Shown here: positions 1 through 64,000 of the stretch, one piece after another
How positions within the stretch are numbered: the first letter of the stretch is position 1
Layout of the letters: every line of letters starts with the position of its first letter
NCBI GenBank assembly: GCA_026745465.1
Contig: JACYXH010000043.1
Coordinates: 62,001 to 126,000 of the forward strand
DNA length: 64,000 nucleotides
Direction of reading: 5' to 3'
From: Lota lota
Lineage: Eukaryota; Chordata; Actinopteri; Gadiformes; Lotidae
Translations under genes and position numbers: made by a program
Notes under the pieces: generated by a model
Told to the model about the DNA's origin: nothing
Databases searched by the model: none
What the model saw: the letters and a program-made list of their open reading frames with translations, nothing else

Positions 1-1
1 T

Positions 2-1125
2 GTGGGATGTCGCTACATCGGGATCAACAAATATGAAATCACAATGAACCATCAAAATGGGAAAAGGAGACTGTTGGACGGCTTCAAAATCAAGAACACC
101 AGGGTTATGGCAAAAGAACTAACTAATGACGAGATGGTGGTGTCGTTCATTGGTCTACCGGTATACATCACGGATGAGGAAATCCTACGCAAACTGTTCG
201 ACTGGGGAGTGAAAGCTGTTTCACCCATTAGGAGGAGGATGTGGCCAGGGACGAGGATCGTGGAGGGCACCCGCTTTGTTAAAGTTAAGTTTACGGACAC
301 TGTTAAATCGTTGCCGTATTCAACGCGTTTTGATACGGAGACGGGTGCAGAATATTTCCGAGTTATACATGATCGCCAGGTAAAGGTATGTAGACTGTGT
401 ACACAACCAGGACACATTGTCCATGAGTCCCCAGATTTTTTGTGCAGGAAGTGTGGGGAGCAGGGACATTATGCAAGGGAGTGTGTGTACACGGAACCAA
501 AGTGCATGGAGTGTGGGAACAGGACGTCAAACTGTGTATGTAAAGTCAATAGGGATGAGGAGGAGGAGGGAGGCAGCATATCGGATATGGATGAGGAAAG
601 AAGGACGGACAATGAGGAAGGTGAGCAGGAGGAAGAGATAATGGGGGGGGGGGGGGAGGGATGATGGAGGAGATGAGGCCAGCAGGCCAAACATTCAAAC
701 AGTTAGGAGAAAGTGTGGGAGAGGACATGGAGTCTGTTCGGGATATTGATTGGGCCACAGTTAAGGACCCTACACACAGATATTTAAAGGCGGGCAGGAG
801 CATGGAAGATGGTGAAAGGGCGACCGGAGGGAGAACAGTCCAAAAGGAGCCTTTGCTTCCTGGAACTGTAAGCCCAGAAGTGAATTGAAGAGTAGCCATT
901 GGAGCTAGTGAAAAAACAGCTGGAATAGCAGATAGTGCATCTGACTGCCAGAGAGAAATACCTGTTAGCTGCATGATCTCAGAGACTAGAAAGAATATGG
1001 GAGGGAGAGGTAAGGAGATGGACAGAATTGAGCCGGAGGAGGAACTTTTGTCAATGGTGGGAGGGAGGAAGAGGGCGCTCCTAGAAAAGCCCAAAAGGTT
1101 AACGGGGTCTAAGACACAAAATTAA
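2..1125 (+). pseudogene. ORF1 (nucleic-acid-binding protein) of LINE copy A, 5' incomplete, broken
   Basis: ORF1 proteins of this family bind the element RNA and form the ribonucleoprotein. The visible part has an RRM-like central region (about nt 130-380) and zinc knuckles (CRLC..GH, CRKCGEQGHYAREC and a third C-rich motif, nt about 391-540), then an acidic tail. Reading is lost in a long G run near nt 643-657, continues one frame over to a TGA at 886-888, and ends at TAA 1123-1125. The start lies before the window. ORF2 begins 23 nt downstream. The poly-G frameshift could be an assembly error, but the TGA is a second lesion. Confidence 0.8.
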
Positions 1126-1148
1126 AGGAAGAAAGGGAAACTAAAAGA

Positions 1149-4100
1149 ATGATTGTAAAGATAGTATTTGTCCTTTCTGGCATTGCTTTAATGGTCACGC
1201 TTACCTCAATTAACATCAATGGTCTTAGGAGTAGTGAGAAACTGGAGGAAGTGTTGATAAATTTTCCATCTGATATTTTAGTGATCCAGGAAACCAATTG
1301 GACACCAGATAAAATACCGGAAATCAGGAAAAGCTGGAGTGGGATGCTATTTGTTAATTGTGGAACGGATAGATCAGGGGGGGTAGCTATCCTAGTGAAA
1401 AAGAATGTGATGGAAAATGTAAAAGAAATGTGTAACGATGGGAAAGGGAGGGTGATAGTGATAGAGTTTGATCTACACGATGTCTCTTTTAGATTAATTA
1501 ATGTATATGCCCCTAATAAGGAAGTAGAGAAGAAGGACTTTTTTGTCACACTAGGGCAGCTCTGTACGGGGAATTGTATTTTGGTGGGTGATTTCAATGT
1601 GTTTTGCACTAAATTGAATGTGTATAGGGTGGATACGTTCAGGCATGATTCAGCGCAGAGGGGGTTGTTGAAAATGATCGAAGACCAAAATTTGATTGAT
1701 GTTTGGAGGATGGGAAATGCAAGTAAGAGAGAATTCTCGAGGAGACAGGTAGTGAACGGCGTTTTGAAACAAAGTAGAATTGATTTATGTTTGGCACTGC
1801 AGAATATTGTAAAAACAATAAGCAATATACAATATAGATTTACCGGATATAGCGACCATGCCGCACTTACATTTAAACTGGGAGACGGACAAAAAGGAAA
1901 GGGTGGGGTGGTATGGTGTCTAAATGCAAGTGTGTTAGCAGAGAATGATTATAAAGAAATGGTAAAGGAGTGTGTGATGGAGCAAATTCAGTGTGAGATG
2001 TATGAGGAGGATGTGTGTGAATGGTGGGAATGCGTGAAAACACGGGTGAGAATGTTAAGTATTAGGTACTGTAAAAATAGGAATCAAGCGAGAAGGAGAA
2101 GAGAATATTTGCTAAGAGAGAGAATGGCGGAGGAAGTAAAACAAATGGAGAAAAACCCAAATAGAAGCATAGCGGAATTCATGGAAGTCAAAGGAGAATT
2201 GGAAGCGTATGAAAAAGAGAAATGTAAAGGGGCAATAATTAGGAGCCGGGCACAGTATGCGGTGGAAGGGGAAAAATGTACATCCTTTTTCCTGGGGTTG
2301 GAAAAGCAGAAACAGAGTAGAACATATCTGGATGTAGTAGAGAATGAGAAAGGGGAGGTAGTGAGTGATTACGTCGGGGTCTTGGAAACAGTACAGGGGT
2401 TTTATAGTAATTTGTTTAAGAAAGGTAGTGTAGATGAAGACAGTATAGAAGAGGTGTTAGGAACTGTGGAAGCTAGACTTTCAGACAGTGAGAGGATAGT
2501 GTGCGAATGTGATTTGTCTGAGTTTGAAGTGAAAGCAGCCATCAAGAGTCTGTCTAGCGACAAAAGCCCTGGCTCTGACGGTCTGACGGGTGAATTCTAT
2601 AAATGTTTCAGTGAGCTGTTAAGTCCAATTTTGTTGAAGGTGTATAAGGAAATGGAAAAGACGGAGCAGGTCAGTGAAGCGATGTCAACAGGTTTGATCA
2701 CATTATTGTACAAGAAAAAGGGTAGTAAATTGCAGCTTGGGAATTATAGAGGGATCACCTTATTAAACACAGATTATAAGATAATAGCAAAGGTATTGGC
2801 GAACAGAATTAAGTCAGTGGTGGGATCTATCGTTTCATCGACACAAGCGTATAGTATTCCGGGGAGAGACATTGCGGACACGATAGGGTCAGTCAGGGAT
2901 GTAGTGAGGCACATGAAAGAAGAGGGAGGTATAGTTTTGAGTGTAGATTTCAACAAAGCGTTTGATAGAGTGGAGCACGGGTTTATGTTTAGGGCATTAC
3001 AGAGATTTGGATTTGGGGATAGGTTGGTGAAGTAGATTCGGTTGTTGTATAGAAGTGCAAAGAGTAGGGTAAAATGTAATGGGGTAATGACAGACAGTTT
3101 TAGGTTAGAGAGATCAGTCAGGCAGGGGTGTCCGTTATCGGCTTTACTGTACAGTATCACAGCGGAACCATTAGCCACAATGGTAAAATCCGATCGGTAC
3201 ATACAAGGCATCAATATTCCAGGAGGAGGCAGGAGTTTAATCCATCAGTATGCAGATGACACCAATGTTACAGTTACAAATCTAGACAGTATGAAAAGAG
3301 TGATTCAACTTCTACAAACATACGGAAAAGCATCAGGAGCAAAAATAAATACAGGAAAATCTGAAGTGATGTGTGTAGGGGAGGTAGACATGAGGGGATG
3401 TGATATACCAGTGAAAGTGGCTAAAGGGATGATAAAAGTATTAGGAGTCAATATAGGCGTGAATGAAAAAGAAGCAAGAGATTTAACATGGACAGGGGTT
3501 TTGAACAAGGTGAAACAGAGCATGAATTTTTGGAAGATGAGGAAGTTGAGGTTGAGGGGAAAGGTTATTGTGGTTAACTGTTTAATTTTGTCACGGGTGA
3601 ATCATGTGTTGAGTGCGCTTGATTTGCCATTGTGGGTGGTGAAAGAGTTAAACAAGGCCATTGATAATTTATTGTGGGATGGGAAGCAGGCAAAGATTAA
3701 GCACAGGTTATTAGTGAATGGGTATAAAGATGGCGGACTGAAATTGATAGACATTGTAGTGAAAAAGCGGGCTTTAAGGGTTAAAACAATAAAAAAATAT
3801 ATGTATGGTAGAGATGAGTATTGCTGGATGGGTTTTTTTGAGGATTGTTTGCACAAGTGTGGTGGATGTGGTGTGCATGGGCTCTTAATGGTTTTAAATA
3901 AACCGAGATGTGAGGAGATGTCATACTTCTATAGGGAGGTGTTTGAAGCGTGGGGGAAGTATATGAAATATGTGAAGTATGAGTGTGTGGACAAGGATGA
4001 GGTATTCAATCAGCCAATCTTTCATAACCTCAAATTAACTCACAACAATAACGTACTGGTCAGCAAACATTTTCAACAAGCAGGAATAAAACAGGTCAAA

Positions 4101-4987
4101 CATTTAATGGCGAAAAACAATGTTCTTTTCAAACCAGAACATGAAATCATACAAGAAATCAGAAAAGTAAATAAAGATGTAAGAAAGAGTGTGGTTGTTG
4201 GAATGTATAAAAAAGTTAAGGAAACTGTTGTTAGTATGTGGGACAAAATCCTATCAGGACAGGGACAGGTGGGTGAGCCAGATAGGATGGAGGAGTTGAA
4301 TGTGGAGAGGAAGGGGATAGGGGTCAAATTTAAGAGTGTCAAAACTAAATGTGTGTGTATGGATTTAGTGGAGGAGGGGATGGTGAGGCCGACAGCCGAG
4401 AAGGTGTGGGAAAAGGTTTTTGTGGATCTGGAGGTTGATAAAGTATGGGGAAATTTGAACGTGAGGTATAACTGTATAGAGTGCGAACATAATGATTTTA
4501 AAATTAGGCACAATAGAGTGTTAACAAATGTTGTCTTGCACCAAATTGATAAGAACGTAAATAGAGTATGTGATGTATGTAAAGGCGGTGATGAAACCTT
4601 TAATCACTATTTTTTTGAATGTCCAATGTTACTTGACATGTTTGAGAAGGTGAAGGATTTGTTAAGTGTACACTGTGGGGTCAAAAGTGAAAATGAAATT
4701 GAATGGAAGAAAATGTTGATATTTGGAGTGTGCGGAAAGAAAAGGATATGAATGTTAATTTGGTGAATTTTATTTTGAGTCATGTGCGTTACACAGTTGT
4801 TTGTCGGAGGAACATTGCCCATTATGAAGGGAGAGTCGTTGCGGGTTGGAAATTGTTTGTGTCAATGTTTAAGAAGAATGTCAGCTTGGTGTACTCACTT
4901 AAGAAGGTGGATTTTAGTAAGCATTTTGTAAATAACAGTACTTTAGTCATGGGTAAGGAAAATGGTAATTTAGAATTTAAGATGTAG
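1149..4987 (+). pseudogene. ORF2 (endonuclease-reverse transcriptase) of LINE copy A, nonsense and frameshift
   Basis: ORF2 of about 1,280 residues, beginning at ATG 1149. Residues 17-240 are the AP-like endonuclease that nicks the target (SININGLR, QETNW, NVYAPN, GDFN, SRIDL, SDH). Residues about 460-800 are the reverse transcriptase (SPGSDG, VDFNKAFDRVEH, QGCPLS, and YADD at nt 3249-3260). A CX2CX8HX4C knuckle lies near nt 4569-4622. Lesions are a TAG at 3033-3035 and a frameshift near 4738. At the TAG position the right arm reads TGG. The catalytic YADD is intact here, whereas the right arm has YEDD. Otherwise this is the best-preserved ORF2 of the 5S-targeted family in the window. Confidence 0.9.
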
Positions 4988-5176
4988 TGTGGGCGCAACA
5001 CAAGTGAAAGGATTCCAGTTTGATATTTCAGTTTCGGTTTATGGTTTTTCAGTGGGTCTGTCATGGTATGTCACGGTTCAATGGTTAAATCCATTGCTGA
5101 ATGCAACTTTGTAAATGCTGCTGAAATATGACGAATGTGTAATTCTATAATAAAAATAAAAAAATTATAAAATTAA
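4988..5176 (+). other. 3' UTR and A/T-rich tail of LINE copy A
   Basis: Non-coding 3' end of the element, closing in an A/T-rich run (ATAATAAAAATAAAA and similar) directly before 5S sequence. This is where target-primed reverse transcription would have started. Confidence 0.75.
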
Positions 5177-5269
5177 GCCCAATGTCGTCTGATCTCGGAA
5201 GCTAAGCAGGGTCGGGCCCGGTTAGTACTTGGATGGGAGACCGCCTGGGAATACCAGGTGCTGTAAGCT
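5177..5269 (+). rRNA. 5S rRNA 3' fragment (about nt 27-120)
   Basis: Matches the vertebrate 5S gene from GCCC at nt 27 to the 3' end CTGTAAGCTT, with changes near the junction (GCCCAATG for GCCCGATC). The internal control region (A box AAGCTAAGCAGGGTCGGG, intermediate element, C box GGATGGGAGACCGCCTGG) is complete. The first 26 nt are missing because LINE A sits upstream. It cannot give a normal 5S rRNA. Confidence 0.92.
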
Positions 5270-5919
<650 letters not shown>

Positions 5920-8900
5920 TCAACTCATATCATCAACAAAAAATAGTTTCCCCTCCTCCACAAAACAAACCGCTCTTTCATAAGCCCACTTCTCCTCAAA
6001 CAATGGGAGATCTTTTACAGCTGAAAAGAACTCAAAATCCACTTTTATTCTTGCTTTCACTAATCCTTTAAAAACACATCTTACATCCTGCCCATATCCC
6101 GTTTCTATCTTATGTTTCCTACTCAGAAAAATGGACATCTTAGCTTGTCCCAAAATAAAACAGTTGACATTTTCTTTTCTGATGCTTACTATATTGAAAC
6201 CCCAAAATAAAAACAGTGTTATTGAAAATCTCCCCTACAGCTTTAAACAAAGACTCCAGCATTTCCAATAGAGGTTTTATCCTCTCACACTCCATAAAAC
6301 AATGAAAAATTGTTTCTCTTATATTACAAAAATCTGAGTTAATAACAGATACAAAAGCATTAACTGCAATGATGCCATGCAAAACCCTCCATTGCATATC
6401 CCCAGTACCCTTTTGTAACGGTGGCTTGTACAGTGCTCTCCATGCTGGCTTTACCTTGTCATCAATGCCCAATTTTACCCTCCATGGAGTGTCTTTTCTA
6501 TTTTTCAATTTATCTTTATTCAAAACCTTGACACACCCCCTGTATAAGTATTTCCCATTCACCTCATCCAAACCCACCTCTTCCAACCGTCTCAAATCCA
6601 GTAATAGCGCCTTTCTTTCTGACTCTGGGATATTGGGTGTAATCCCTAGTCTTGGAAATGAGACGTTTTCATCTTGTACCTTCTTCTTGTGACTATTCAG
6701 CATACCCCACTCTTCTGCTGACAGAGCCTTCCTGCAGCTTCCCAGCAGATGTCCGACAATCCTTTCCGACCTCACCCCCAAATGTTCAGCCACCCTTCTT
6801 CCATCCATTAAGGCGGTCCCAGCCATGGCCATTAACTGTTTTAAGGTGATGATTTTGCCCTCCACCAGAATCTTGGAGAAATATGGAACAGCTGCAGTTG
6901 TACAATTCAGTCTTGCCCCATACACCAGAGGTTCCTCCAACAGCCAATGCGCTGACTCCGCTGACGTTCGTCTGGATACCTTCATAATGCGCCACACCCT
7001 AAGAAGGCCTCTGTAAAACGGATGTACTCCCTCCCTAGAAATCTGGCTACTATCAACCAAAAATAAAGCTTTCTTTAAACCTAATCCCCCAACCTGCTGT
7101 AATACAAGACCTGCCACCCCTCTCCAAACCACATTTTCCGGTCCATAAAGCAACCTTTGAATAAACTGAAACCGGAAAGCAGCAGCCCTACTAGCAAGAT
7201 GTACAAGACCTGGTCCCCCCTCCTCTTTTGACAAATACAAAACACTTTGTGGAACCCAGTGATATTTATCCCAAAAAAATCCACAATAATTGCCTGTATC
7301 TTAGCCAGAAGGCCAGATGGTGGCTCTAAAACTGACAACCGATGCCACAGTGCAGAGGCAATCACATTGTTAACTATAATAGTGCGCCCCCTATATGACA
7401 TACGCGATAACAACCAACGGCATCTCCTCATCCTCCCTTCTACCATTTCAACCACCCCAATCCAATTTTTTTCCATTGTCCCCTCATCTCCTAGGTACAC
7501 TCCAAGGTACTTAAAACCTCCCTTACACCATTCCAGCCCCCCTGGCAAAGCCATGATCCCTCCATACCACTCTCCAATCTGTAAAGCACAACTTTTTCCC
7601 CAATTTACCTTTGCAGAGGATATTCCCCTAAAACGGTCAACCATTAGACTCAAAGTATCCACCTCCGCTTGATTTTTCACTAAAACAACTACATCATCAG
7701 CATAGGCTGAGAGACGAATAGGAGGAATATCCTCTGAAAGGTACACCCCTTCAATGCGACTTCTAATGCTATTTAGTAGTGGCTCCATAGCAATGGCATA
7801 TAACATTCCCGACAAAGAACATCCCTGCCTAATACCTCTACACACTTTAAAAGGAGCACTCAAACCACCGTTAACTTTCAATACACTTTCAATGTCACCA
7901 TATATCACCTTTATCATGGCAATAAAACCAGAGCTGATTCCAAACGCCTCAAAAGTGTGCCATAAGTATTGATGTTCAACTCGGTCAAATGCCTTTTCCT
8001 GATCAATTGAAATTAGACCAGCATCCAACCCAATAGCCCTAGAGACGTCCAAAAAACCACGAATCAGAGAAATGTTATCCCCTATCTGCCTGCCAGGAAC
8101 ACAGTAGGACTGGTCCGTATGTATGATTTGCCCCATCACCTCCCTCAGCCTGTTGGATAAAGCCTTGGACAGGATCTTATAATCAGTGCACAATAGAGCC
8201 ACCGGCCTCCAGTTCTTCACCTCCCTAGGGTCACCCTTTTTGGGCAGTAAGGTGAGGACAGCCCTTCTGCAGCTTATTGGTAGTAACCCTCTGGTTAAAC
8301 TATCATTAACTACTGCTAGCCAATCCTCTCCCAACATAGCCCAAAAAGACTTAAAAAAGTCAACGGGAAGCCCATCAATGCCTGGTGCCCTTCCATTTTC
8401 CATGCCTTTTAATGCAGTGTATAGCTCCTGCAAAGACAATGGTTGCTCTAGCTCAACCTGAGCTTCTGCAGCCACCTGTGGGAGCCCATCAAGGAACTGC
8501 TGTGTCACTGTTTTATCCTCTTTGTACTCACACTTGTAGAGCTCAGCATAGAACTCTACTGCCCTCTTTCTAATTTCACTAGGGCTAGTGAGCTCCTGTC
8601 CAACAGCTGATTTGAGACATTGAATAATTATTCTTTGTCCATTCTTTTTCTCTAAACCAAAGAAAAATGTGGATGATGCATCCATTTCAGAGATTCCCTG
8701 AAACTTACTTCTCACCAATGCCCCCTGTGCTCTGATACCCAGCAGGTCTGCCAATGTAGCTTTTTTCCTCTTGAGGGCCTGAGTATGGCCTCGATCTCCT
8801 GTGGTCTCAACCAACGTCATGAGTTCCACTATTTCAGTCTCTAGGGCTTTCATTGATTTGGTGATATCCCTGGTGACATTCCTCGTGTATTGATTACATA

Positions 8901-9790
8901 ATTGTTGAATCTGGATTTTCCCTATATCCCACCACTGTTGAAGGGATACAAAACTGGCCTTTTGAGACCTCCACCTCTCCCAGAAAAAACTAAAACATTT
9001 CCTAAAGTGAGCATCACTCAATAAAGTTATATTAAAATGCCAATATGCGCTTTTAGGTTTTACATCATTAATGAACACCACCTCTGTTATTAAACAATGA
9101 TCAGAAAATCCCACTGGGGTTATCACACTTGATTTACAGACCTGAGATTGATGCTCAAAACAATAAAACCTATCTAACCTGGCCATAGAGATGGTGTTCT
9201 CTCTCACATGCACCCAGGTGTACTGTCTCGTGCCTCCATGTTGACTCCGCCAAATATCACACAGTTCATGTGTTACAATGAGGCGTTTTAAAAAAGTCCT
9301 TGAGGCTATATGAGGTTCTTTGTGATTTCTATCTAAATCACTGACTGTGCAGTTAAAATCCCCAGCAATAAATAAATAATCTTCATTATTACATTTCTCA
9401 ATGGTATTTGATAATGTCTCTAAAAAGCATACCCTCTCAACTGCCACCACTGGGGCATATACATTTATCAGACACATAGTGATGTTTTCATACCTTGCTC
9501 TAACTTTTAATAACCTCCCCTCAAGTACCTCTTCAACCTCATATGACAAAGGCAAAAACCCTTTTGAGAACAAGATGGCCACACCCCCACTTTTTGAGGT
9601 TTTATGACTACACACCACTGTCCCCCCCCCACTCCTGTTGCCACATAACTTCATTTTCCAAATTACTATGCGTTTCTTGTAGAAAATGTATGTCACTTCC
9701 CTTTCCCCTAATTAACTCATACACTATGGCTCTTTTTTTAACGTCTCTTGCCCCATTTACGTTTAAAGAAGAAATCTTAAAACTGCTCAT
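5920..9790 (-). pseudogene. ORF2 (endonuclease-reverse transcriptase) of Kibi-like LINE, frameshifted
   Basis: ORF2 begins at ATG 9790-9788 (MSSFKISSLNVNGARD). The endonuclease carries LQETHS, GVAILFS, NVYAPV, GDFN and FSDH. The reverse transcriptase carries APGIDGLP, SIDQEKAFDRVEH, RQGCSLSG and an intact YADD at 7704-7693. The C-terminal knuckle keeps FCNIRETIFHCFMEC, but a short in-frame deletion has removed its first cysteine. Frameshifts lie in the G/C run at 9622-9630, at the GGG at 7270-7272 (one G fewer than the right arm) and near 6170. The homopolymer shifts are simple decay or possible base-call errors; the zinc-knuckle deletion is real loss. Confidence 0.88.
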
Positions 9791-9944
9791 GGATGAAAAA
9801 AAAATACAGAGGAAGACACAGAAACCACATCTCTTTACAGAGTTAAGGCTGCGACTGAACTCTTTCATTTTTGTTTAGAATTTGCATCACTTATCACTCT
9901 CGTCTAGCAATTTCAGGACTTGTCAAACCTCCCCCTGTTATTTT

Positions 9945-11156
9945 TTACATCAGAAACTTTGCTGATTCAATAAACAATTCACTTTCAGGGAAAAAATCTG
10001 TTACATTATAATCCTGCATATATTTCTTCCCTTTTGTCAACTTCAGAAATTGACGTACTTTCTCAATCCCATACCTCCCTTCCACCCCATTTATCTCACT
10101 AGTTTGTTGTGATGCATCAGATGACTCACTCTCGCTATCCTCCCCAGAAGAAAACTCCACCATCTCTACAACCTGTTTATCTTCAACTGATTTATCAATC
10201 TCTACCTTTCTCTTGGAATTAGACCCTTCACCACCCCTTACATTCTTCCTCTTACTCCTCGGTACTTTGAAAACAGCTGCTTCCTTTTCCATTATTTCAA
10301 TCTCCTCCTGACCTCCACTTTCATTTTCCAGCACCACCTCACCAACGGCAGTCGCAATCTCACCGACTTTTCCCCCTCCTTCTTTGTTCTGATCTACCAC
10401 CATTGCCCCCGTATCCACACTGCCTTCCTCTCCTACTTTTCCTACCACATCTGCCCACCTCCTCCCTTCCCCAGCACCCACACCCTTAGCATGTTCATCC
10501 CTTCGCGGTGGTGCATTAGCTGCACCAGCACTAGAGCTGCTACCTGAATCTTCGCGCTGATTCTCGGGACAATTACGCACCAAATGCCCCTCTCTTCCAC
10601 AACCAAAGCATTTCATTGATTCAGTAGAAGCATAGGAGACATAATCAAATCCATCAATCTTAAAACTGAATGCTAAATTCAGTTCACCAATGTCCTTTTT
10701 TGAAATCATATGCACTTGTCTCCTATGAGACACGACATGTTTCAGCAACGGAGATCTGCATCCAAAAAGAACCTTCTTTATTGTTGATACAATTTGACCA
10801 TGACAAGATAACTCTCGCTCCAACACTTCATCTCTAACAAATGGTGGCACGTTAGAAAGTATAACTTTCTTCGCCGGATTCATAAGCGGAAATACCGGCG
10901 TCTGTGTCTCCTGCAACACAACACCACTCTCAACTATCTTATTCACCTTTTCAATGGAATCTAAAAATATCACTACAGCGCTATTCATCCTTGAGGCTGA
11001 TTTGATGCTATCATACCCAATAATAGCACCCACTGCCAAGCTACATTCTTCCGCTGAACACCCGGCCGCAGCAGGAATCTTAACTCCATGTCGCCGACTA
11101 AGTTTTTCAAACTCCAAACTCGCGAAAAACAACCTCAACAATCCCACCACCCCCAT
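9945..11156 (-). CDS. ORF1 of Kibi-like LINE (403 aa), open
   Basis: Open frame of 403 residues, presumed to be the element's RNA-binding protein. Residues about 95-130 resemble an RRM-like fold (VILSNVPPF..VLEREL). A CCHC knuckle, CFGCGREGHLVRNC, lies at residues 183-196 (nt 10569-10610). A lysine/acid-rich tail follows. The start at 11156 sits about 145 nt inside the element. The stop precedes the ORF2 ATG by about 155 nt. It has no lesion here, while the right-arm copy has lost about 330 bp of the tail. Whether it is expressed cannot be judged. Confidence 0.82.
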   Translation of the reverse strand: MGVVGLLRLFFASLEFEKLSRRHGVKIPAAAGCSAEECSLAVGAIIGYDSIKSASRMNSAVVIFLDSIEKVNKIVESGVVLQETQTPVFPLMNPAKKVILSNVPPFVRDEVLERELSCHGQIVSTIKKVLFGCRSPLLKHVVSHRRQVHMISKKDIGELNLAFSFKIDGFDYVSYASTESMKCFGCGREGHLVRNCPENQREDSGSSSSAGAANAPPRRDEHAKGVGAGEGRRWADVVGKVGEEGSVDTGAMVVDQNKEGGGKVGEIATAVGEVVLENESGGQEEIEIMEKEAAVFKVPRSKRKNVRGGEGSNSKRKVEIDKSVEDKQVVEMVEFSSGEDSESESSDASQQTSEINGVEGRYGIEKVRQFLKLTKGKKYMQDYNVTDFFPESELFIESAKFLM

Positions 11157-11299
11157 ACGTGCTTAGTGATAGTTAGACAAGATAACCTTAAAACATGTAA
11201 ACTAATCAATATAAATAAATACACACCAAAACCCAATAGAGTGAAAAAAAAATCCAGTCGCTCTCACACTCACTCCTGCTTCACGACTCACTCTCTCTC

Positions 11300-11300
<1 letters not shown>

Positions 11301-11330
<30 letters not shown>

Positions 11331-11340
11331 CACACACACA
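11301..11340 (+). repeat. (AG)n(CA)n microsatellite, 5' flank of Kibi-like LINE
   Basis: GAGAGACAGAGAG... followed by (CA)n. It continues the spacer microsatellite interrupted at 5782; the CA tail and the following AAGTCTTA match the uninterrupted spacer at 32990-33010. Confidence 0.88.
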
Positions 11341-11868
11341 AAGTCTTATCAAGTTAATTAATTAATTCCTGTCTCACAATATTCGGCTGCACAACGCAAC
11401 AGCACAGAGCGTGGACTTTTGTAATTCAATTTTTTTGAAGCAAACAAACCATCTTTTGAAACAATTGTAACAACCGCGGGCCACTTCAAATGTTAAAAGA
11501 AATCATTACAGTGAGCCGGATCACATGCTTATTTTTTCTGTTCTGTTGTAGGCCTTTAGTCTTTATCTGTCAACAAACAAGCAAGTCGAATGTAGCCTAC
11601 ACATTGTGCATGCTCTCAATGTACGAACGATTTGGTTTGGTGAAAATGACGATGGAAATCGATGAGGACCTGACACTGAAATGATAGCTTAATGCTGGCG
11701 GAATGAATGCCTATGTACGTTGACATCGAGAAGGAATCAGACCGAATCAATTACTGCCCTCTACATTGAACTAATCCTTCCTTTCTAAAAGTGTAACGTG
11801 GGACGTGAGCAACGTTCTCACAATATATGTCCTACTCTATAAAAGCCATTTTGCCGCAACCAAAAATT
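11341..11868 (+). repeat. 5S non-transcribed spacer, unit 1, distal part
   Basis: Spacer leading into the next 5S start. It is matched by 33003-33504 in unit 4 and by 54140-54667 on the minus strand. No gene is seen; short open frames inside it are not conserved in unit 4. Confidence 0.87.
11838..11844 (+). promoter_or_regulatory. TATA-like box of 5S gene
   Basis: TATAAAA at -31 to -25 relative to the 5S start at 11869. The same spacing occurs at 33474-33480 and, on the minus strand, 54164-54170. An upstream TATA-like element near -30 is known to assist some animal 5S genes. Confidence 0.75.
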
Positions 11869-11899
11869 GCTTACGGCCATACCACCCTGAGCACGCCCG
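11869..11899 (+). rRNA. 5S rRNA 5' fragment (nt 1-31)
   Basis: Exact vertebrate 5S start (GCTTACGGCCATACCACCCT...GCCCG), broken after nt 31 by the 5' end of LINE copy B. Since 3' fragments elsewhere begin at nt 27, the target-site duplication is about 5 nt (GCCCG). The internal control region is missing. Confidence 0.95.
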
Positions 11900-12051
11900 T
11901 TGGTTTGAACCAGGAAGTGAGTGAGCAGAGAGCATAGCAGTGTTTGTTTGTATCGTGTGCTTGTGAGTCAAGTTGTGCTTGTTTACTTTGTGTGTTAGAC
12001 TGAGTTGTGTGTGAGTTAGAGAGTGTTTTTGACTGTTTGTTTTCGGTTTTT

Positions 12052-12077
12052 CCCCCAGCAGCATAGCTGTTTGGGGG
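12052..12077 (+). other. Conserved 5' UTR hairpin of 5S-targeted LINE
   Basis: CCCCC-A-GCAGC / loop ATA / GCTGT-T-T-GGGGG can fold into an 11-bp stem with a bulged T, just upstream of the ORF1 ATG. The counterpart in copy E (33653-33678) has base changes that keep the pairing. A role in RNA packaging or translation is inference. Confidence 0.55.
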
Positions 12078-12093
12078 AACGTCCGCGCGGCGT

Positions 12094-17333: not shown

Positions 17334-17351
17334 GAGAGAGAGAGAGAGGGA

Positions 17352-17435: not shown

Positions 17436-17437
<2 letters not shown>

Positions 17438-19801: not shown

Positions 19802-19804
19802 CAA

Positions 19805-20572: not shown

Positions 20573-20578
20573 GAAATA

Positions 20579-49035: not shown

Positions 49036-49247
49036 GATTTTTTATAAAAAACACCAGTCATCAGACATACACGTTCACATACGACTGTCATATCACATAC
49101 CAACTTATCCTGATAGCCTTAAAGGGAAATTACAACAAGCAAGCGGGGAGAGAAAACATCAATGTGGTTCTGTACCCAAAACAGAACTAAAATAAATACT
49201 TATTTCACCCACCTATTCTGCTAACATGTATTGCATTCAGTCTACAC

Positions 49248-49911: not shown

Positions 49912-50285
49912 TGTGGGAGTGTGTGTGGATGGTGGCTGGTTTAAGCAGCCTCACCTGGCCCGAGTCAGACTGATTGGACTCTGGGGCTGGGTGGGGCTGC
50001 ACACCTGTTGCACATTGAGCAATCAGTGTGCACAGGTTAAACCAGCCACCACCACACACACTCAGAGAGAGCTCTCCGGCATGGCAGCATGGAGTAACAG
50101 CTGCATGCCTCATTCTATACAACCATTACAATAAACCGGATTTTCAACATCACCACCCTGTGTCCATTCGTTTGGAGGAGCCCGAGGAAAGTCACCTAGG
50201 TGGAGTGAGAAAAGCCACCTAGGTGGCGTGTAGCAATGTCCACTACTACACGCCACCTAGGTGGCGTGTAGTAGTGGACATTGCT
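49912..50285 (+). mobile_element. Solo LTR with folded-back end, right arm
   Basis: Mirror of 15723-16096. On this strand it reads TGTGGGAG... with AATAAA near 50133 and ends in the 54-bp perfect palindrome at 50232-50285. Confidence 0.8.
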
Positions 50286-52700
50286 TTCAGATGTATTATT
50301 GTATTATTAGCTTTCAGATGTATTATCACAAATTAACTTAACTTCTCCAAAAGCACCTAAGAGAATTCAGAACAAACCAAGCATACAGATTTAAGAATGT
50401 AATGACATCAAATTTCCAAATAAGACATATCAGTGGCATTATCTGTCAGGAGTTTTCCACTGAGTCATTTCTAATAAATGTTTTTGATAGTAATAATAAT
50501 AACTTATTTGATTGAAAATGTGCAAATATTTCAGACATAACTATTAACAGTATTCCTTGTGATTACAGGAGAAAAATGCAAAAACATTTAAGTACATTTT
50601 GCTCTGATGCACATTAGCCCAAGCCAGATGCTTGACATCTTTTCTTAGCTGTAAGTTCATCAATGTCTGGAGTCAGGCTCTGAGCTGTGGCAATTCTCAG
50701 GATGGAGTGAAGGTGTCCGTCACTGAGACGACTCCGGTGTGATGTTTTGTTCATCTTCATCAAAGAGAAAAGTTAGTCACACAGGTATGTGCTACCAAAC
50801 ATGCAAAGCATTTGAGCAGCTTGTAGGCGGAGTTAAGGCATCGTTTCAGGGATGAAATGTGGGAACTGTGCAGCGCCCACAGAGTCATACTTCGCCTTAA
50901 GTGTGTCACTACATTGGAGGTCAAGCAGCTCCATTTGGATGTTCATATGTGCCTTTTCCACGTCAACCGCAAACGGATTACTGAGAAGGTCAAACTTAGT
51001 TTTCTGAGCTTCGAAGTCGGCAAATCGCCATGTGAACTCGTTACTAAGTATGCCCAGTTTTTCAGCAAAATGTGCACTTGGAAAAATAGCGGCAGAAACC
51101 TTGTGTGTCATCGACAGGCGGCACGGAAAGTGACCCAAGATTCTTTCCAACATATGCGTCTCCCACAGACGCAGTTTGGCTTTAAAAGCCCTCACTGCAG
51201 CATGCATGTCTGTGATCACACGGTCCCGTCCCTGAAGCTGGAGGTTTAGCGCATTGAGATGGTTCGTTATATCACACAGAAAGGCCAGCTCACACAGCCA
51301 CTTTTCATCATGGAGCTCTGTGGTGTCTTTCCCTTTGCTTTCCATAAACTGACAGATATCCTCACGCAACTCGAAATATCTGTTGAGCACTTTCCCTCGA
51401 CTTAGCCAGCGCACCTCTGTGTTATAGGGGACGTCACCATTTTTAGACTCGATCTCCTCCAGAAAAGCCTTAAACTGGCGGTGGTTTAAACCGTTGGCTC
51501 TTATAAAGTTAACAGTCGGTGTCACGGTGCTCATCACATGTTCCATTGTTAGCGCTTTGCCGCGCAATGTTTCTTGGTGTATAATGCAGTGGTAAACTGT
51601 CAGCTCACCTGGCCAATTGTCCTCCCACATCTTATCCCGCATTCTGCCCACTAATCCACTCTTTCTACTGCACATTGCAGGCGCTCCATCTGTTGTCAGT
51701 CCTACCAGTTTGTCCCAAGGCAGCTTCATTTCATTTACACAATTAGATACTTCTTCAAATATGTATTTTCCCATGGTTCATGCCGTGCATTGATTTAATA
51801 CCCAAAAGGTCCTCTGTAACACGCAAGTCAGAGTCCACTCCACGGATGAAGATTGACAGCTGGGCAGTATCTGTTATGTCGCTGCTCTCATCTACAGCAA
51901 GGGAATAAGCAATGAAGTCTTTTCCTTTTTCCATTAGCTGATTTTGTATATTGGTAGCAAGCTCGCATGTCCGGTCAGCAACGGTGTTTCTGGTAAGGCT
52001 TACATTTAAAAATGCTTGCTTTTGGTCAGGACACACGACTTCGCACACTTTAATCATGCATCGCTTCACAAACTCTCACTCGGTAAATGGCCGGGCCGAT
52101 TTAGCTATTTCTTCAGCCACAATAAAACTAGCTTTAAAGGCAGCTTCACTTTGACATTTAGCTTTTTTGAACATAGCCTGCTGTGACACCTGAATTTTTT
52201 TCAACTCTTCTAACTTCTGGAGCTTCTGCCGTGTGTCCAGTTCCCTGTACCCGCCCTCATGTTTCGTTTCATAGTGTTGTCTTATGTTGTATTCTTTAAT
52301 TACGGCCACAACAGCTCCGCACACAAGACCAACAGGTTTACCCCTTGTGTTAGTGAACAGATACTCTGCCTCCCATCTGTCTTGAAAGCCCCTGTTTTCA
52401 AAGTCCACCTTTCGTTTGGGCATTTTTGGGAGGGCTAGAGTTAGCTTAAAGTTGATCCGAAGTGACAGGATAAGTGTGAGACTGAAGAGTTTGTCAATAA
52501 AGGGGCTTGCCGCCGTTGATTGATGTCTCAACAAATAGCTGGCGCCGGTTATTGCAGTGCAGTCTGGGATTTGTAGTATTAATGATGTGCGTGCTATATT
52601 CCGGCGGGCCAATTCTGATAGACATAAAATATTATATCGCGGGCCGGAGACAATTGTCCAGTGGGCCGGATGTGGCCCGCGGGCCATGAGTTTGACATGT
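50286..52700 (-). mobile_element. hAT DNA transposon, right arm
   Basis: Mirror of 13308-15722: the terminus with GGCCCGCGGGCC palindromes is near 52640-52700, and the other terminal repeat is missing. Confidence 0.8.
50614..52423 (-). pseudogene. hAT transposase (GTF2IRD2-like), right arm, inactive
   Basis: Starts at ATG 52423. All translated segments (203, 104 and 313 codons) are identical to the left-arm copy, and the two stops, the frameshift and the terminal stop fall at the mirrored positions. Same function and lesions as 13585-15394. Confidence 0.88.
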
Positions 52701-53914
52701 ATGGTTTAGGGTGACCTGCTCCTCATTCGGAAAAGCAGTTGCAGCTCCCCTGTCTCTCGGCGCCACACCGCTCCTCATCTCCATCGCCTCAGGTCTGGTG
52801 CCTACCGATGTAGTCATCGGAGTTGACCTCACCATCGCGCTCTCCTCGGGTGTTCCCTCAGTGCTGCAGCCCACCTTACAGGACACGCCGTCCATGCTGC
52901 TGCCTATGGTTGACGGAATGGTTTGTCCCCGGCTGGCGACTCCGGCATCCCCATCTCCCTCCTGCAATGTTGCGTCTGCATAGTCATTATCCTCGTCCTG
53001 TTGCCGCTGCTCCTCCCCGGACTCGAACATGTCCTCGCTGCCGCTGGCTGGCTCGGTGGCGGCCTGCTGCTCCTCCTCTCTGCGTCGCTCCTCTTGTGAA
53101 TCACACTCACTTGCATAGTGTCCCTGCTGCTTACATTTGTGACAGGGCATTCCCTCAAAATATGTCCTGGCTGAATGCACAGCCTGCAGACTTTAACTTG
53201 CCTGTCATCAATGACACGGAAGTATTTCCGTAAGTCAAGTGTCTCAAACTTAGTTGAGTATGGCAGTGATTGCACTAGTTCAGTAAATTGAACTTTGCAA
53301 AACCTTGTCCCGTCCGCCACGTCTGTCCCTGGCCATTTCCGCCTTTTGATAGACAAAACTGCCTTCACACCTCACCCAGAGAGTTTTTGCAGTATTTCAC
53401 TGTCTGTAACATATGGTGGCAAATTGAGGAAAGACACTACCATTTCGTTACTGCGCGCTTCCTTGGCCATCACCCGGGCGTTCTTCACCTTGAACCCGTC
53501 TAGCAACAGTTTCTTCCCCCGTCCCTCCTGCATGGTGATCTCATATGTGTTATTAGCTTTGAACCTACATGCTAGAACAATCCCACAGTGCTCCTTGATC
53601 CCCCTCAACAACTCCATCATTGTGACTTTGTCATCTCCCACGAGCTCTACAATCAAGGTAAGTTCTTTTTTATATCCCCCGTCGTCCTCGCTCTCTGCCG
53701 CATTCATCGTTTCATTAGCGCTCACGGTCTCTGTGGAATCCATCTTTCTTTTTTCACTCTGTCTCTCTCCCACAATCGTCTCTTCATTCAATCTTCCTTT
53801 CTCATTTACTTTCCTTCGCCTTGCATCCATCTCCCTTTCTCCGTTGTTCAAAGCTGTTTCTGTTATCCGTTCCATATTTTCGTTTGCCGAGTTATCCATC
53901 CGATCACAAAACAT
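52701..53914 (-). pseudogene. ORF1 of LINE copy B', nonsense plus frameshift
   Basis: Mirror of 12094-13307: same start, same TGA (53372-53374), same inter-knuckle frameshift and the same loss of the tail to the hAT element. The hairpin counterpart lies upstream at 53931-53956. Confidence 0.85.
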
Positions 53915-53930
53915 ACGCCGCGCGGACGTT

Positions 53931-53956
53931 CCCCCAAACAGCTATGCTGCTGGGGG
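53931..53956 (-). other. Conserved 5' UTR hairpin, copy B'
   Basis: Mirror of 12052-12077, identical; not an independent observation. Confidence 0.5.
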
Positions 53957-54108
53957 AAAAACCGAAAACAAACAGTCAAAAACACTCTCTAACTCACACA
54001 CAACTCAGTCTAACACACAAAGTAAACAAGCACAACTTGACTCACAAGCACACGATACAAACAAACACTGCTATGCTCTCTGCTCACTCACTTCCTGGTT
54101 CAAACCAA

Positions 54109-54139
54109 CGGGCGTGCTCAGGGTGGTATGGCCGTAAGC
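54109..54139 (-). rRNA. 5S rRNA 5' fragment (nt 1-31), minus strand
   Basis: Mirror of 11869-11899, identical, broken after nt 31 by LINE B'. Confidence 0.94.
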
Positions 54140-54667
54140 AATTTTTGGTTGCGGCAAAATGGCTTTTATAGAGTAGGACATATATTGTGAGAACGTTGCT
54201 CACGTCCCACGTTACACTTTTAGAAAGGAAGGATTAGTTCAATGTAGAGGGCAGTAATTGATTCGGTCTGATTCCTTCTCGATGTCAACGTACATAGGCA
54301 TTCATTCCGCCAGCATTAAGCTATCATTTCAGTGTCAGGTCCTCATCGATTTCCATCGTCATTTTCACCAAACCAAATCGTTCGTACATTGAGAGCATGC
54401 ACAATGTGTAGGCTACATTCGACTTGCTTGTTTGTTGACAGATAAAGACTAAAGGCCTACAACAGAACAGAAAAAATAAGCATGTGATCCGGCTCACTGT
54501 AATGATTTCTTTTAACATTTGAAGTGGCCCGCGGTTGTTACAATTGTTTCAAAAGATGGTTTGTTTGCTTCAAAAAAATTGAATTACAAAAGTCCACGCT
54601 CTGTGCTGTTGCGTTGTGCAGCCGAATATTGTGAGACAGGAATTAATTAATTAACTTGATAAGACTT
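54140..54667 (-). repeat. 5S spacer, unit 1', distal part
   Basis: Mirror of 11341-11868, essentially identical. No gene seen. Confidence 0.87.
54164..54170 (-). promoter_or_regulatory. TATA-like box of 5S gene, minus strand
   Basis: TATAAAA on the minus strand, first base 31 nt upstream of the 5S start at 54139. Confidence 0.73.
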
Positions 54668-54674
54668 TGTGTGT

Positions 54675-54730
<56 letters not shown>
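54668..54730 (+). repeat. (GT)n(TC)n microsatellite, 5' flank of Kibi-like LINE (right)
   Basis: GT repeats then about 50 bp of TC leading directly into the LINE 5' end. Longer than the left counterpart (11301-11340). Confidence 0.9.
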
Positions 54731-54874
54731 GAGAGAGAGTGAGTCGTGAAGCAGGAGTGAGTGTGAGAGCGACTGGATTTTTTTTTTCACTCTATTGGGT
54801 TTTGGTGTGTATTTATTTATATTGATTAGTTTACATGTTTTAAGGTTATCTTGTCTAACTATCACTAAGCACGT

Positions 54875-55821
54875 ATGGGGGTGGTGGGATTGTTGAGGTT
54901 GTTTTTCGCGAGTTTGGAGTTTGAAAAACTTAGTCGGCGACATGGAGTTAAGATTCCTGCTGCGGCCGGGTGTTCAGCGGAAGAATGTAGCTTGGCAGTG
55001 GGTGCTATTATTGGGTATGATAGCATCAAATCAGCCTCAAGGATGAATAGCGCTGTAGTGATATTTTTAGATTCCATTGAAAAGGTGAATAAGATAGTTG
55101 AGAGTGGTGTTGTGTTGCAGGAGACACAGACGCCGGTATTTCCGCTTATGAATCCGGCGAAGAAAGTTATACTTTCTAACGTGCCACCATTTGTTAGAGA
55201 TGAAGTGTTGGAGCGAGAGTTATCTTGTCATGGTCAAATTGTATCAACAATAAAGAAGGTTCTTTTTGGATGCAGATCTCCGTTGCTGAAACATGTCGTG
55301 TCTCATAGGAGACAAGTGCATATGATTTCAAAAAAGGACATTGGTGAACTGAATTTAGCATTCAGTTTTAAGATTGATGGATTTGATTATGTCTCCTATG
55401 CTTCTACTGAATCAATGAAATGCTTTGGTTGTGGAAGAGAGGGGCATTTGGTGCGTAATTGTCCCGAGAATCAGCGCGAAGATTCAGGTAGCAGCTCTAG
55501 TGCTGGTGCAGCTAATGCACCACCGCGAAGAGATGAACATGCTAAGGGTGCGGGTGCTGGGGAAGGGAGGAGGTGGGCGGATGTAGTAGGAAAAGTAGGA
55601 GAGGAAGGCAGTGTGGATACGGGGGCAATGGTGGTAGATCAGAACAAAGAATGAGGGGAAAAAGTCGGTGAGATTGAATCAGCAAAGTTTCTGATGTCAA
55701 AAATAACAGGGGGAGGTTTGACAAGCCCTGAAATTGCTAGACTCAAGAAAGTGGTCACGAGAGTGATAAGTGATGTAAATTCTAAAGAAAATGAAAGTTC
55801 AGTCGCAGCCTTAACTCCGTA
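54875..55821 (+). pseudogene. ORF1 of Kibi-like LINE, right arm, tail deleted
   Basis: The first 259 codons match the left ORF1, including the RRM-like segment and CCHC knuckle CFGCGREGHLVRNC (about 55421-55462). A TGA at 55652-55654 and a deletion near 55676 remove the charged middle of the tail present in the left copy; SAKFLM resumes afterwards and the frame drifts on to about 55821. Confidence 0.8.
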
Positions 55822-60377: not shown

Positions 60378-60468
60378 AAGCTTACAGCACCTGGTATTCC
60401 CAGGCGGTCTCCCATCCAAGTACTAACCGGGCCCGACCCTGCTTAGCTTCCGAGATCAGACGTTGGGC
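60378..60468 (-). rRNA. 5S rRNA 3' fragment, minus strand
   Basis: Mirror of 5177-5269, with the junction region shortened by a few bases (GCCCAACGTCTG). The A box, intermediate element and C box are retained. Confidence 0.91.
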
Positions 60469-63400
60469 TTATTTTTATTAATTTTTTATTTTTATTATAG
60501 AATTACACATTTGTCATATTTCAGCAGCATTTACAAAGTTGCATTCAGCAATGGATTTAACCATTGAACCGTGACATACCATGACAGACCCACTGAAAAA
60601 CCATAAACCGAAACTGAAATATCAAACCGGAATCCTTTCACTTGTGTTGCGCCCACACTAAATCTTAAATTCTAAATTACCATTTTCCTTAACCATGACT
60701 AAAGTACTGTTATTTACAAAATGCTTACTAAAATCCACCTTCTTAAGTGAGTACACCAAGCTGACATTCTTCTTAAACATTGACACAATTTCCAACCCGC
60801 AACGACTCTCCCTTCATAATGGGCAATGTTCCTCAGACAAACAACTGTGTAACGCACATGACTCAAAATAAAATTCACCAAATTAACATTCATATCCTTT
60901 TTCTTTCCGCACACTCCAAATATCAACATTTTCTTCCATTCAATTTCATTTTCACTTTTGACCCCACAGTGTACATTTAACAAATCCTTCACCTTCTCAA
61001 ACATGTCAAGTAACATTGGACATTCAAAAAAATAGTGATTAAAGGTTTCATCACCGCCTTTACATACATCACATACTCTATTTACGTTCTTATCAATTTG
61101 GTGCAAGACAACATTTGTTAACACTCTATTGTGCCTAATTTTAAAATCATTATGTTCGCACTCTATACAGTTATACCTCACGTTCAAATTTCCCCATACT
61201 TTATCAACCTCCAGATCCACAAAAACCTTTTCCCACACCTTCTCGGCTGTCGGCCTCACCATCCCCTCCTCCACTAAATCCATACACACACATTTAGTTT
61301 TGACACTCTTAAATTTGACCCCTATCCCCTTCCTCTCCACATTCAACTCCACCATCCTATCTGGCTCACCCACCTGTCCCTGTCCTGATAGGATTTTGTC
61401 CCACATACTAACAACAGTTTCCTTAACTTTTTTATACATTCCAACAACCACACTCTTTCTTACATCTTTATTTACTTTTCTGATTTCTTGTATGATTTCA
61501 TGTTCTGGTTTGAAAAGAACATTGTTTTTCGCCATTAAATGTTTGACCTGTTTTATTCCTGCTTGTTCAAAATGTTTGCTGACCAGTACGTTATTGTTGT
61601 GAGTTAATGTGAGGTTATGAAAGATTGGCTGATTGAATACCTCATCCTTGTCCACACACTCATACTTCACATATTTCATATACTTCCCCCACGCTTCAAA
61701 CACCTCCCTATAGAAGTATGACATCTCCTCACATCTCGGTTTATTTAAAACCATTAAGAGCCCATGCACACCACATCCACCAAACTTGTGCAAACAATCC
61801 TCAAAAAAACCCATCCAGCAATACTCATCTCTACCATACATATATTCTTTTATTGTTTTAACCCTTAAAGCCCGCTTTTTCACTACAATGTCTATCAATT
61901 TCAGTCCGCCATCTTTATACCCATTCACTAATAACCTGTGCTTAATCTTTGCCTGCTTCCCATCCCACAATAAATTATCAATGGCCTTGTTTAACTCTTT
62001 CACCACCCACAATGGCAAATCAAGCGCACTCAACACATGATTCACCCGTGACAAAATTAAACAGTTAACCACAATAACCTTTCCCCTCAACCTCAACTTC
62101 CTCATCTTCCAAAAATTCATGCTCTGTTTCACCTTGTTCAAAACCCCTGTCCATGTTAAATCTCTTGCTTCTTTTTCATTCACGCCTATATTGACTCCCA
62201 ATACTTTTATCATCCCTTTAGCCACTTTCACTGGTATATCACATCCCCTCATGTCTACCTCCCCTACACACATCACTTCAGATTTTCCTATATTCATTTT
62301 TGCTCCTGATGCTTTTCCGTATGTTTGTAGAAGTTGAATCAACTCTTTTCATACTGTCTAGATTTGTAACTGTAACATTGGTGTCATCTTCATACTGATG
62401 GATTAAACTCCTGCCTCCTCCTGGAATATTGATGCCTTGTATGTACCGATCGGATTTTACCATTGTGGCTAATGGTTCCGCTGTGATACTGTACAGTAAA
62501 GCCAATAACGGACACCCCTGCCTGACTGATCTCTCTAACCTAAAACTGTCTGTCATTACCCCATTACATTTTACCCTACTCTTTGCACTTCTATACAACA
62601 ACCGAATCCACTTCACCAACCTATCCCCAAATCCAAGTCTCTGTAATGCCCTAAACATAAACCCGTGCTCCACTCTATCAAACGCTTTGTTGAAATCTAC
62701 ACTCAAAACTATACCTCCCTCTTCTTTCATGTGCCTCACTACATCCCTGACTAACCCTATCGTGTCTGCTATGTCTCTCCCAGGAACACTGTACGCTTGT
62801 GTCGATTAAACGATAGATCCCACCACTGACTTAATTCTGTTCGCCAATACCTTTGCTATTATCTTATAATCTGTGTTTAATAAGGTGATCCCTCTATAAT
62901 TCCCAAGCTGCAATTTACTACCCTTTTTCTTGTACAATAATGTGATCAAACCTGTTGACATCGCTTCACTGACCTGCTCCGTCTTTTCCATTTCCTTATA
63001 CACCTTCAACAAAATTGGACTTAACAGCTCACTGAAACATTTATAGAATTCACCCGTCAGACCGTCAGACCCAGAGCTTTTGTCGCTAGACAGACTCTTG
63101 ATGGCTGCTTTCACTTCAAACTCAGACAAATCACATTCGCACACTATCCTCTCACTGTCTGAAAGTCTAGCTTCCACAGTTCCTAACACCTCTTCTATAC
63201 TGTCTTCATATACACTACCTTTCTTAAACAAATTACTATAAAACCCCTGTACTGTTTCCAAGACCCCGACGTAATCACTCACTACCTCCCCTTTCTCATT
63301 CTCTACTACATCCAGATATGTTCTACTCTGTTTCTGCTTTTCCAACCCCAGGAAAAAGGATGTACATTTTTCCCCTTCCACCGCATACTGTGCCCGGCTC

Positions 63401-64000
63401 CTAATTATTGCCCCTTTACATTTCTCTTTTTCATACGCTTCCAATTCTCCTTTGACTTCCATGAATTCCGCTATGCTTCTATTTGGGTTTTTCTCCATTT
63501 GTTTTACTTCCTCCGCCATTCTCTCTCTTAGCAAATATTCTCTTCTACTTCTCGCTTGATTCCTATTTTTACAGTACCTTATACTTAACATTCTCACCCG
63601 TGTTTTCACGCATTCCCACCATTCACACACATCCTCCTCATACATCTCACACTGAATTTGCTCCATCACACACTCCGTTACCATTTCTTTATAATCATTC
63701 TCTGCTAACACACTTGCATTTAGACACCATACCACCCCACCCTTTCCTTTTTGTCCGTCTCCCAGTTTAAATGTAAGTGCGGCATGGTCGCTATATCCGG
63801 TAAATCTATATTGTATATTGCTTATTGTTTTTACAATATTCTGCAGTGCCAAACGTAAATCAATTCTACTTTGTTTCAAAACGCCGTTCACTATCTGTCT
63901 CCTCGAGAATTCTCTCTTACTTGCATTTCCCATCCTCCAAACATCAATCAAATTTTGGTCTTCGATCATTTTCAACAACCCCCTCTGCGCTGAATCATGC
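60469..64000 (-). mobile_element. 5S-targeted Tx1-clade LINE, copy A', 5' end outside window
   Basis: Mirror of copy A from its 3' tail (60469-60713) up into the endonuclease; the window ends before the ORF2 start and ORF1. Confidence 0.9.
60714..64000 (-). pseudogene. ORF2 of LINE copy A', 5' incomplete, nonsense and frameshifts
   Basis: Covers the endonuclease from DSAQRGLLKMIEDQNLIDVW (63998 leftward; SRIDL, YSDHAAL) through the RT to the C-terminal knuckle CDVCKGGDETFNHYFFEC. Private lesions are a TAA at about 62806-62808 (TCA in the left arm), one extra T near 62333, and the active-site box changed to YEDD (about 62386-62397). It keeps TGG where the left arm has the TAG, and it reads through the left arm's frameshift near 4738 before shifting at about 60790. 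SSGSDG replaces SPGSDG. Confidence 0.88.

Follow-up and report, generated by a model that had tools for sequence, protein, structure and literature searches.

A giant inverted repeat in relict 5S rDNA of Lota lota with a sharply bounded, conversion-like block shared by its arms

In a 64,000-nucleotide stretch of the Lota lota genome (assembly GCA_026745465.1, contig JACYXH010000043.1, positions 62001-126000), relict teleost 5S rDNA broken up by long interspersed nuclear elements (LINEs) forms a giant inverted repeat, and its two arms, elsewhere diverged, share one nearly identical block of about 6.5 kb. The whole stretch is called the window below, the contig is C43, and coordinates are those of the window unless prefixed C43. 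The inverted repeat is confirmed as one of a known general kind; what is added here is a mapped, sharply bounded, conversion-like block and the resulting correction to the dating of lesions. Probably an inverted duplication was joined at 35465/35466, insertions and deletions followed, and patchy conversion between the arms came after them. The assembly comprises 575 Mb in 867 contigs, C43 being a contig of 170 kb. The main parts of the structure are as follows.

1643-27735, plus strand: left arm, collinear inverted self-matches, running on leftward to C43 60722
37127-64000, minus strand: right arm, collinear inverted self-matches, running on rightward to C43 128891
27736-35465, plus strand: central spacer, no mirror partner
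1643-9971 and 64000-55673: inverted block 1
10355-19807 and 55676-46184: inverted block 2
20573-21373 and 46176-45375: inverted block 3
24934-27321 and 45386-42894: inverted block 4
27317-27606 and 42566-42278: inverted block 5
27604-27735 and 37255-37127: inverted block 6
10501-16958, plus strand: near-identical block, left copy, proposed gene-conversion tract, 2 substitutions in 6458 columns
49050-55530, minus strand: near-identical block, right copy

The inverted repeat is present in the assembly as six collinear inverted blocks with 273 substitutions in 21,297 aligned columns, and inverted homology extends beyond the window up to C43 60722 and 128891, giving arms of about 29 kb each, private inserts included. 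An earlier description made from the letters of the window alone (the sequence-only reading) had proposed that a degenerate 5S/retrotransposon array forms a giant inverted repeat, which the collinear blocks bear out, at a length greater than that of the window. Chance or common repeats as the cause of the match are ruled out by the collinear order of the nested elements. The same reading gave the spacer as about 9.4 kb; the unmatched centre, 27736-37126, does measure 9,391 bp, but 35466-37126 is the right arm's LINE continuing, and once this stretch is set aside the foreign spacer proper is 27736-35465. The right arm also carries a 383-bp deletion (left 9972-10354) with repeated CAAT at its bounds, which the earlier description lacked.

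Segmentation of the whole arms, starting at C43 60842 and leaving out 60622-60841 (200 columns with 74 mismatches, spanning the (GA)n boundary), divided their divergence into four blocks of 132/1825 (7.23%), 116/9400 (1.23%), 2/6425 (0.03%) and 163/6429 (2.54%), while shuffled profiles gave a single block in 20 of 20 runs. When the segmentation penalty was lowered to 8, 11 blocks were obtained and the 0.03% block was unchanged. A two-state model finds a single block, 10501-16958, with 2 substitutions in 6458 columns, against 271 in the 14,839 columns outside, a rate ratio of 59 (95% interval 16-489) in favour of the outside; identity within it is 99.97%, and 22 of its 23 gap columns lie within an (AG)n of unequal length. 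The longest run with at most two mismatches is 6458 columns, the maximum in 2000 shuffles being 1449. A large inverted repeat with collinear arms is accompanied by an abrupt high-identity block (edges at 10500 and 16959), but most of the arm length falls short of 99% identity, the 7.2%, 1.2% and 2.5% blocks making up 17,654 of 24,079 columns. Outside the block and within the window, the outer part (108/8427) and the inner part (163/6412) differ (p 2e-8); differences within the inner part are clumped to a degree reached in 0 of 2000 shuffles, and those within the outer part are not (292 of 2000).

Lying in the block are the 5′ portion of LINE K, a 5S promoter together with the 5′ half, and LINE2 plus its two inserts; nothing there looks to be under selection. 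Because it holds dead elements and crosses element boundaries, neither constraint nor fresh insertion would explain its identity, and recent insertion of LINE2 in particular is ruled out, as LINE2 starts 1.4 kb into the block. The simplest interpretation is a recent copying of one arm onto the other by gene conversion. The sequence-only reading had expected a palindrome of this size to be a hotspot for rearrangement and gene conversion, and this sharply bounded 99.97% block is a sign of the latter. Consensus error was rejected as the main source of the arm differences: the arms show a transition:transversion ratio near 1 (51:57 and 84:79), but the seven control pairs from within the window likewise range from 14:23 to 15:8.

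The block changes how the shared lesions are to be dated. It had been claimed that old lesions common to both arms predate the duplication, and the stop codon TGA at 12634 and the fusion at 16971/16972 are indeed present in both, but the argument given does not establish their age. The TGA, the stops in the hAT-like insert and the folded-back long terminal repeat (LTR) all lie inside 10501-16958, and the fusion of LINE2 to the spacer lies 13 bp past its edge. Since all four lie in or near a proposed conversion block, their sharing is expected after conversion whatever their age, and they may have been copied between the arms later. Lesions common to two palindrome arms therefore need not predate the duplication, which matters for the dating of nested insertions. 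Shared features outside the block, namely the 3′ part of LINE K and the missing 5S 5′ half before LINE3, argue for an array that was damaged before it was duplicated. K copies from two further contigs are 1.9-2.3% divergent from those of the arms, which in turn differ by 1.4% over that stretch and have 25 derived sites in common; insertion of K into the spacer therefore probably preceded the duplication, unless it was spread from arm to arm by conversion. The conversion-like block also appears to be late, and may have arisen before or after the BEL-type and gypsy-type insertions.

The polarity of the arm differences was examined against outside copies. For LINE K, comparison with the two outside copies gave 20 left-derived and 29 right-derived sites besides the 25 shared-derived ones. 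At C43 61399-61884, compared with a head-to-tail copy on contig C296, 55 derived sites fall on the right arm and 10 on the left (p 1.2e-8); at C43 62686-67660 the C296 copy gives 16 left, 29 right and 382 common to both arms. When the edge was compared with a more distant copy at C43 20888-22348, the excess was opposite, with 61 left-derived and 28 right-derived sites in 1424 columns. The 7.2% outer edge was therefore rejected as a base-line divergence, as its excess of derived sites is lopsided and the side depends on the reference copy; this outer 1.8 kb appears to have some further exchange in its past. The left- and right-derived K sites, together with the mixed polarity against paralogous array copies, indicate that both arms mutate. 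In the K open reading frame 2 (ORF2) protein, 54 columns differ between the arms on comparison with P0116, of which 37 are reference-like in the left arm, 15 in the right and 2 in neither; 13 of the 37 lie in a frameshifted stretch of the right arm (765-801), and the remaining 24 versus 15 give a binomial p of 0.20.

The centre of the structure has two joints.

35465/35466: inversion joint, plus-strand LINE6 meeting minus-strand LINE4 at different element positions
27735/27736: second joint, LINE4 meeting the 3′ untranslated region (UTR) of LINE X, with 'GC' common to both

There are no Ns in the window, so no gap stands at the inversion joint, and the protein homology of LINE6 and LINE4 reaches to within a few bases of it. 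The left piece of LINE4 is about 69% like LINE6 over 231 columns. Beyond the equivalent of 27735/27736, the right arm retains LINE4 for 1.66 kb more. The spacer between the joints reads, in order, LINE X 3′ UTR, 5S 3′ half, 5S spacer with an LTR element, 5S 5′ half and the 5′ part of LINE6. The stretch 27736-28054 was considered as LINE4's own 3′ UTR and rejected, because it belongs to family X.

It was found that spacers of matching units are alike between the arms, at 3/471, 7/360 and 4/185 differences, and unlike within an arm, where left unit 1 differs from left unit 2 at 21/362 and from the central unit at 35/461, so that the tandem units here have not been evened out. The description of this 5S DNA as satellite-like fits poorly, divergence among units in and near the arms being about 4-8%. 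Neighbouring spacers on C296 are alike at 99.3% (533 columns) and 98.0% (895 columns). It is a tentative and rather doubtful suggestion that the mirror arrangement alone sustains copying in dead DNA, without genes or selection and where tandem evening has stopped, and so rewrites the apparent age of lesions; the C296 tandem units, 98-99% alike, weaken it somewhat, since the missing homogenisation is local.

Several accounts of the same pattern have to be weighed against an inverted duplication followed by conversion. It is unlikely, although of some weight, that two haplotypes of one 5S/LINE locus were misjoined head to head, the block being identity by descent or collapse. By our judgement, an arm divergence of 1-2.5% with insertion differences fits haplotypes in a repeat-rich region, and searches gave no allelic contig for two stretches: no other LINE4 copy exceeds 69% (40 of 70 candidates scored), and for K only the two arm copies reach at least 98% (37 of 37 scored). 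The LINEs that meet at the gapless joint, however, are about 69% alike and form a poor basis for a false overlap, C43 has further changes of orientation, and the arm-private insertions with target duplications count for a real palindrome. The left flank, moreover, keeps the order of C296 (93.9% over 2506 columns beyond the (GA)n, except for about 0.75 kb), yet no inverted match of at least 150 bp was found between the left flank, C43 50001-60721, and the compared sequence right of 128891, from which C43 150001-157500 and 160001-167500 were set aside. Read palindromes from a missed adaptor have near-identical arms and almost no spacer, and such an artefact was rejected, the arms here being diverged and the spacer long. 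Somewhat less improbable than a misjoin is a tandem duplication of which one copy was then inverted, with the same later history, conversion included; the minus/plus/minus/plus order of 5S on C43 resembles a plus block inside a minus array. Near the ends of this plus block, a K′-type LINE ends at about C43 54.8 kb and LINE6 at 97465, LINE4 stands at 97466 and another LINE at about 55.1 kb; on our reading of the data, which is not a test, turning the plus block back leaves these broken elements unjoined and requires extra deletions. Least probable of these accounts is that a third array copy supplied the block to both arms, or that several conversions were summed: one arm does seem to have exchanged with something else at the outer edge (C43 61399-61884), but a third-copy source requires two long events with matching ends, and over the 5S promoter stretch the remaining array copies in the comparison, which did not extend to a genome-wide search for a third donor, are at least about 4.5% from the arms.

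An inverted duplication with later conversion is preferred, and several points nevertheless weigh against it. The palindrome is known here from the sequence of one assembly, and for the LINE4 and K stretches no third allelic copy separates a palindrome from a misjoin. The block limits were picked from the data, for which only the shuffle tests allow, and either arm, or another copy, may have been the donor. The joint at 27735/27736 needs a second event. Repeated changes of orientation on C43 imply a history more complex than one event. The flank comparison is weak, the right flank consisting mostly of other elements, and a K′-like LINE near the left arm is 90-97% alike to that of the right flank in direct orientation. 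Finally, the similar neighbouring units of C296 show that elsewhere in this genome's 5S arrays tandem units are homogenised or have recently been duplicated.

On the preferred reading, the starting material would have been a teleost 5S array whose genes were already split by LINEs at the 5S site. Some 24 kb of shared sequence would then have undergone inverted duplication; with later inserts each arm now measures about 29 kb. The geometry shows a head-to-head junction at 35465/35466 that falls within two different LINEs, and 7.7 kb of array remaining between the arms. A single fold-back or strand-switch event at a break could have been the cause. In yeast, inverted duplications are reported to arise by fold-back priming at breaks (PMC10622511), and inverted repeats that are diverged and far apart are reported to interact in single-stranded DNA (PMC10164571). 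The arms then diverged, each gaining LTR insertions and deletions of its own. Later, about 6.5 kb would have been copied from arm to arm in at least one conversion event, presumably lowering divergence there from about 2% to 0.03%. As neighbouring tandem units are not evened out, the mirror rather than the tandem arrangement appears to guide copying here.

Most of the large inverted repeats known to undergo conversion are on sex chromosomes, where genes and selection complicate the picture; a palindrome of dead 5S/LINE DNA whose arms carry private insertions would give a cleaner measure of the timing of arm copying. Y palindromes have >99.9% arm identity, and sex-chromosome palindromes often hold germ-cell genes. 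For the human P6 palindrome, conversion tracts are reported with a mean minimum of 2068 bp and an inferred length of up to 9023 bp (PMC3723533). The Lota repeat is similar in being a large inverted repeat with a proposed multi-kilobase conversion tract, and differs in that its conversion is patchy and its content looks dead. In pike (Esox lucius), mirror-image 5S tandem blocks with or without spacers are reported in 11 of 286 long reads analysed (PMC5437419). Both are thus mirror-image 5S blocks in a teleost genome, but the pike blocks so described are dense 5S tandems, whereas Lota has split 5S, kilobase units and a measurable arm divergence. Among the literature matches listed, judged by titles and abstract openings, there was no fish 5S palindrome with a mapped conversion tract, which is weak evidence of absence. 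Mutsu is described as a 5S-targeting LINE of zebrafish (PMC3706591, PMC11202950). It resembles the Lota elements as a LINE in fish 5S genes, the likeness being one of site; in Lota several mutually diverged families occupy the site. Mutsu is reportedly also treated by Kojima and Fujiwara in 2004 and by Locati et al. in 2017. Kibi-type LINEs target (TC)n, and LINE K resembles them in this habit, its end lying on (TC)n in both arms and at two further loci.

The insertions private to one arm and that in the centre are the following.

19808-20572: left-only insert with inverted ends (19864-19976 and 20462-20572), no clear target duplication
21372-24940, plus strand: left-only LTR element (BEL in the sequence-only reading), LTRs identical at 516/516, target duplication AGTAG
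37258-42277, plus strand: right-only gypsy-type element, matches to reverse transcriptase, RNase H and integrase in two pieces, target duplication ATCCT
42567-42893: right-only solo LTR, target duplication CTCAT
28356-32784, minus strand: central LTR element in the 5S spacer, integrase match, target duplication CTATG

The arm alignment agrees with the earlier assignment of the BEL and fold-back insertions to the left arm and of gypsy and one solo LTR to the right. The BEL-type, gypsy-type and solo LTR insertions have 5-bp target duplications and an empty site on the opposite arm, and hence postdate the separation of the arms. The LTR pair of the gypsy-type element differs by 1 substitution and two gaps, and a 1499-codon open frame (37599-42098) together with these near-identical LTRs marks the element as young. 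The LTRs of the central element differ at 21/378, which suggests that it is older. The longest open frame of the left-only LTR element has no Pfam match. In 19808-20572 a 21-bp tandem repeat makes up the inverted ends, and a few of the bases at the empty site were apparently replaced.

The 5S and LINE components of the arms and centre are listed below.

5177-5270, plus strand: 5S 3′ half, unit 1 left; right copy at about 60379-60468
11869-11897, plus strand: 5S 5′ half, unit 1 left; right-arm copy 54111-54139, minus strand
26939-27031, plus strand: 5S 3′ half, unit 3 left; right-arm copy at about 43238-43330, minus strand
28056-28149, plus strand: 5S 3′ half, central unit
33505-33533, plus strand: 5S 5′ half, central unit
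1-5176, plus strand: LINE1, 5S-site LINE, left copy, with endonuclease, reverse transcriptase and zf-RVT
5783-11299, minus strand, outer limits approximate: LINE K in (GA)n of the 5S spacer, 3′ end adjoining (TC)n
11899-16971, plus strand: LINE2 in a 5S site, 3′ end fused to spacer without a 5S 3′ half
about 13303-15720: insert in LINE2 (hAT in the earlier description), matching only PF18658
about 15725-16096: LTR in LINE2, taken as the folded-back LTR of that description
17436-26938, plus strand: LINE3, broken by the left-only inserts and ending on a 5S 3′ half

Rfam gave five 5S matches in the window (38.5-63.8 bits), and the first 26 or so bases of all five are LINE tail. No whole 5S copy was found in the window by these matches and a separate search for halves; the 5′ halves stand alone at 11869, 33505 and 54111. 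Across the genome, 47 matches were scored from 16,521 first-look candidates, of which 7 reach 114.1 bits and 34 have at most 67.7 bits, near the split copies of the window. By eye, the 5S site is fixed, with three independent 3′ junctions at nt ~26-28 and two independent 5′ junctions at nt ~29-31, LINE2 being an exception at its 3′ junction. The LINEs in this site belong to several families, LINE1 and LINE3 having 41% protein identity over 570 residues, and LINE1 and the spacer LINE K 21-33%. ORF2 of LINE1 matches PF03372, PF14529, PF00078 and PF13966, covering endonuclease and reverse transcriptase, and its frame is split by a single stop at 3033-3035. The 3′ end of K adjoins (TC)n at all three independent loci examined (the shared arm insertion, L037 and L038, excluding the C791 and C498 copies). 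Named close protein matches are to teleosts, and the few distant named ones to other animals or a fungus. The LTR in LINE2 begins with its own first bases repeated in inverted form, which by eye makes a small palindrome at the insertion edge (15725-15775). The central unit lacks LINE K at this place, and at 32955-32985 it carries (ACAT)n instead of the (GA)n of units 1 and 2. Family X, represented in the window at 27731-28355, occurs at six loci on five contigs (L003-L008), 97.6-99.9% alike in the longest pairwise matches; it has perhaps moved recently, or its surroundings were duplicated, and it is perhaps a recently active 5S-site LINE. At several of these loci the downstream spacer turns into tandem repeats of about 290 bp.

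Along C43, the 5S pieces form blocks of alternating orientation, namely minus (14.7-50.5 kb), plus (59.6-95.5 kb), minus (105-128 kb) and plus (168 kb). No intact 5S joint with at most 6 substitutions was found on the examined part of C43. Among the 12 contigs with at least two scored 5S matches, 11 have a single orientation and only C43 is mixed, so inversion is rare among contigs with scored 5S matches, through biology or error. The right flank contains a K′-like LINE with a large insert up to 143.4 kb and other open frames up to 150 kb. At C43 168387-170000 (L020) there are about 5.5 tandem copies of a 291-bp unit from the 5S spacer, including (GA)n; these were rejected as intact 5S units, being spacer-derived, and may represent a spacer-born satellite.

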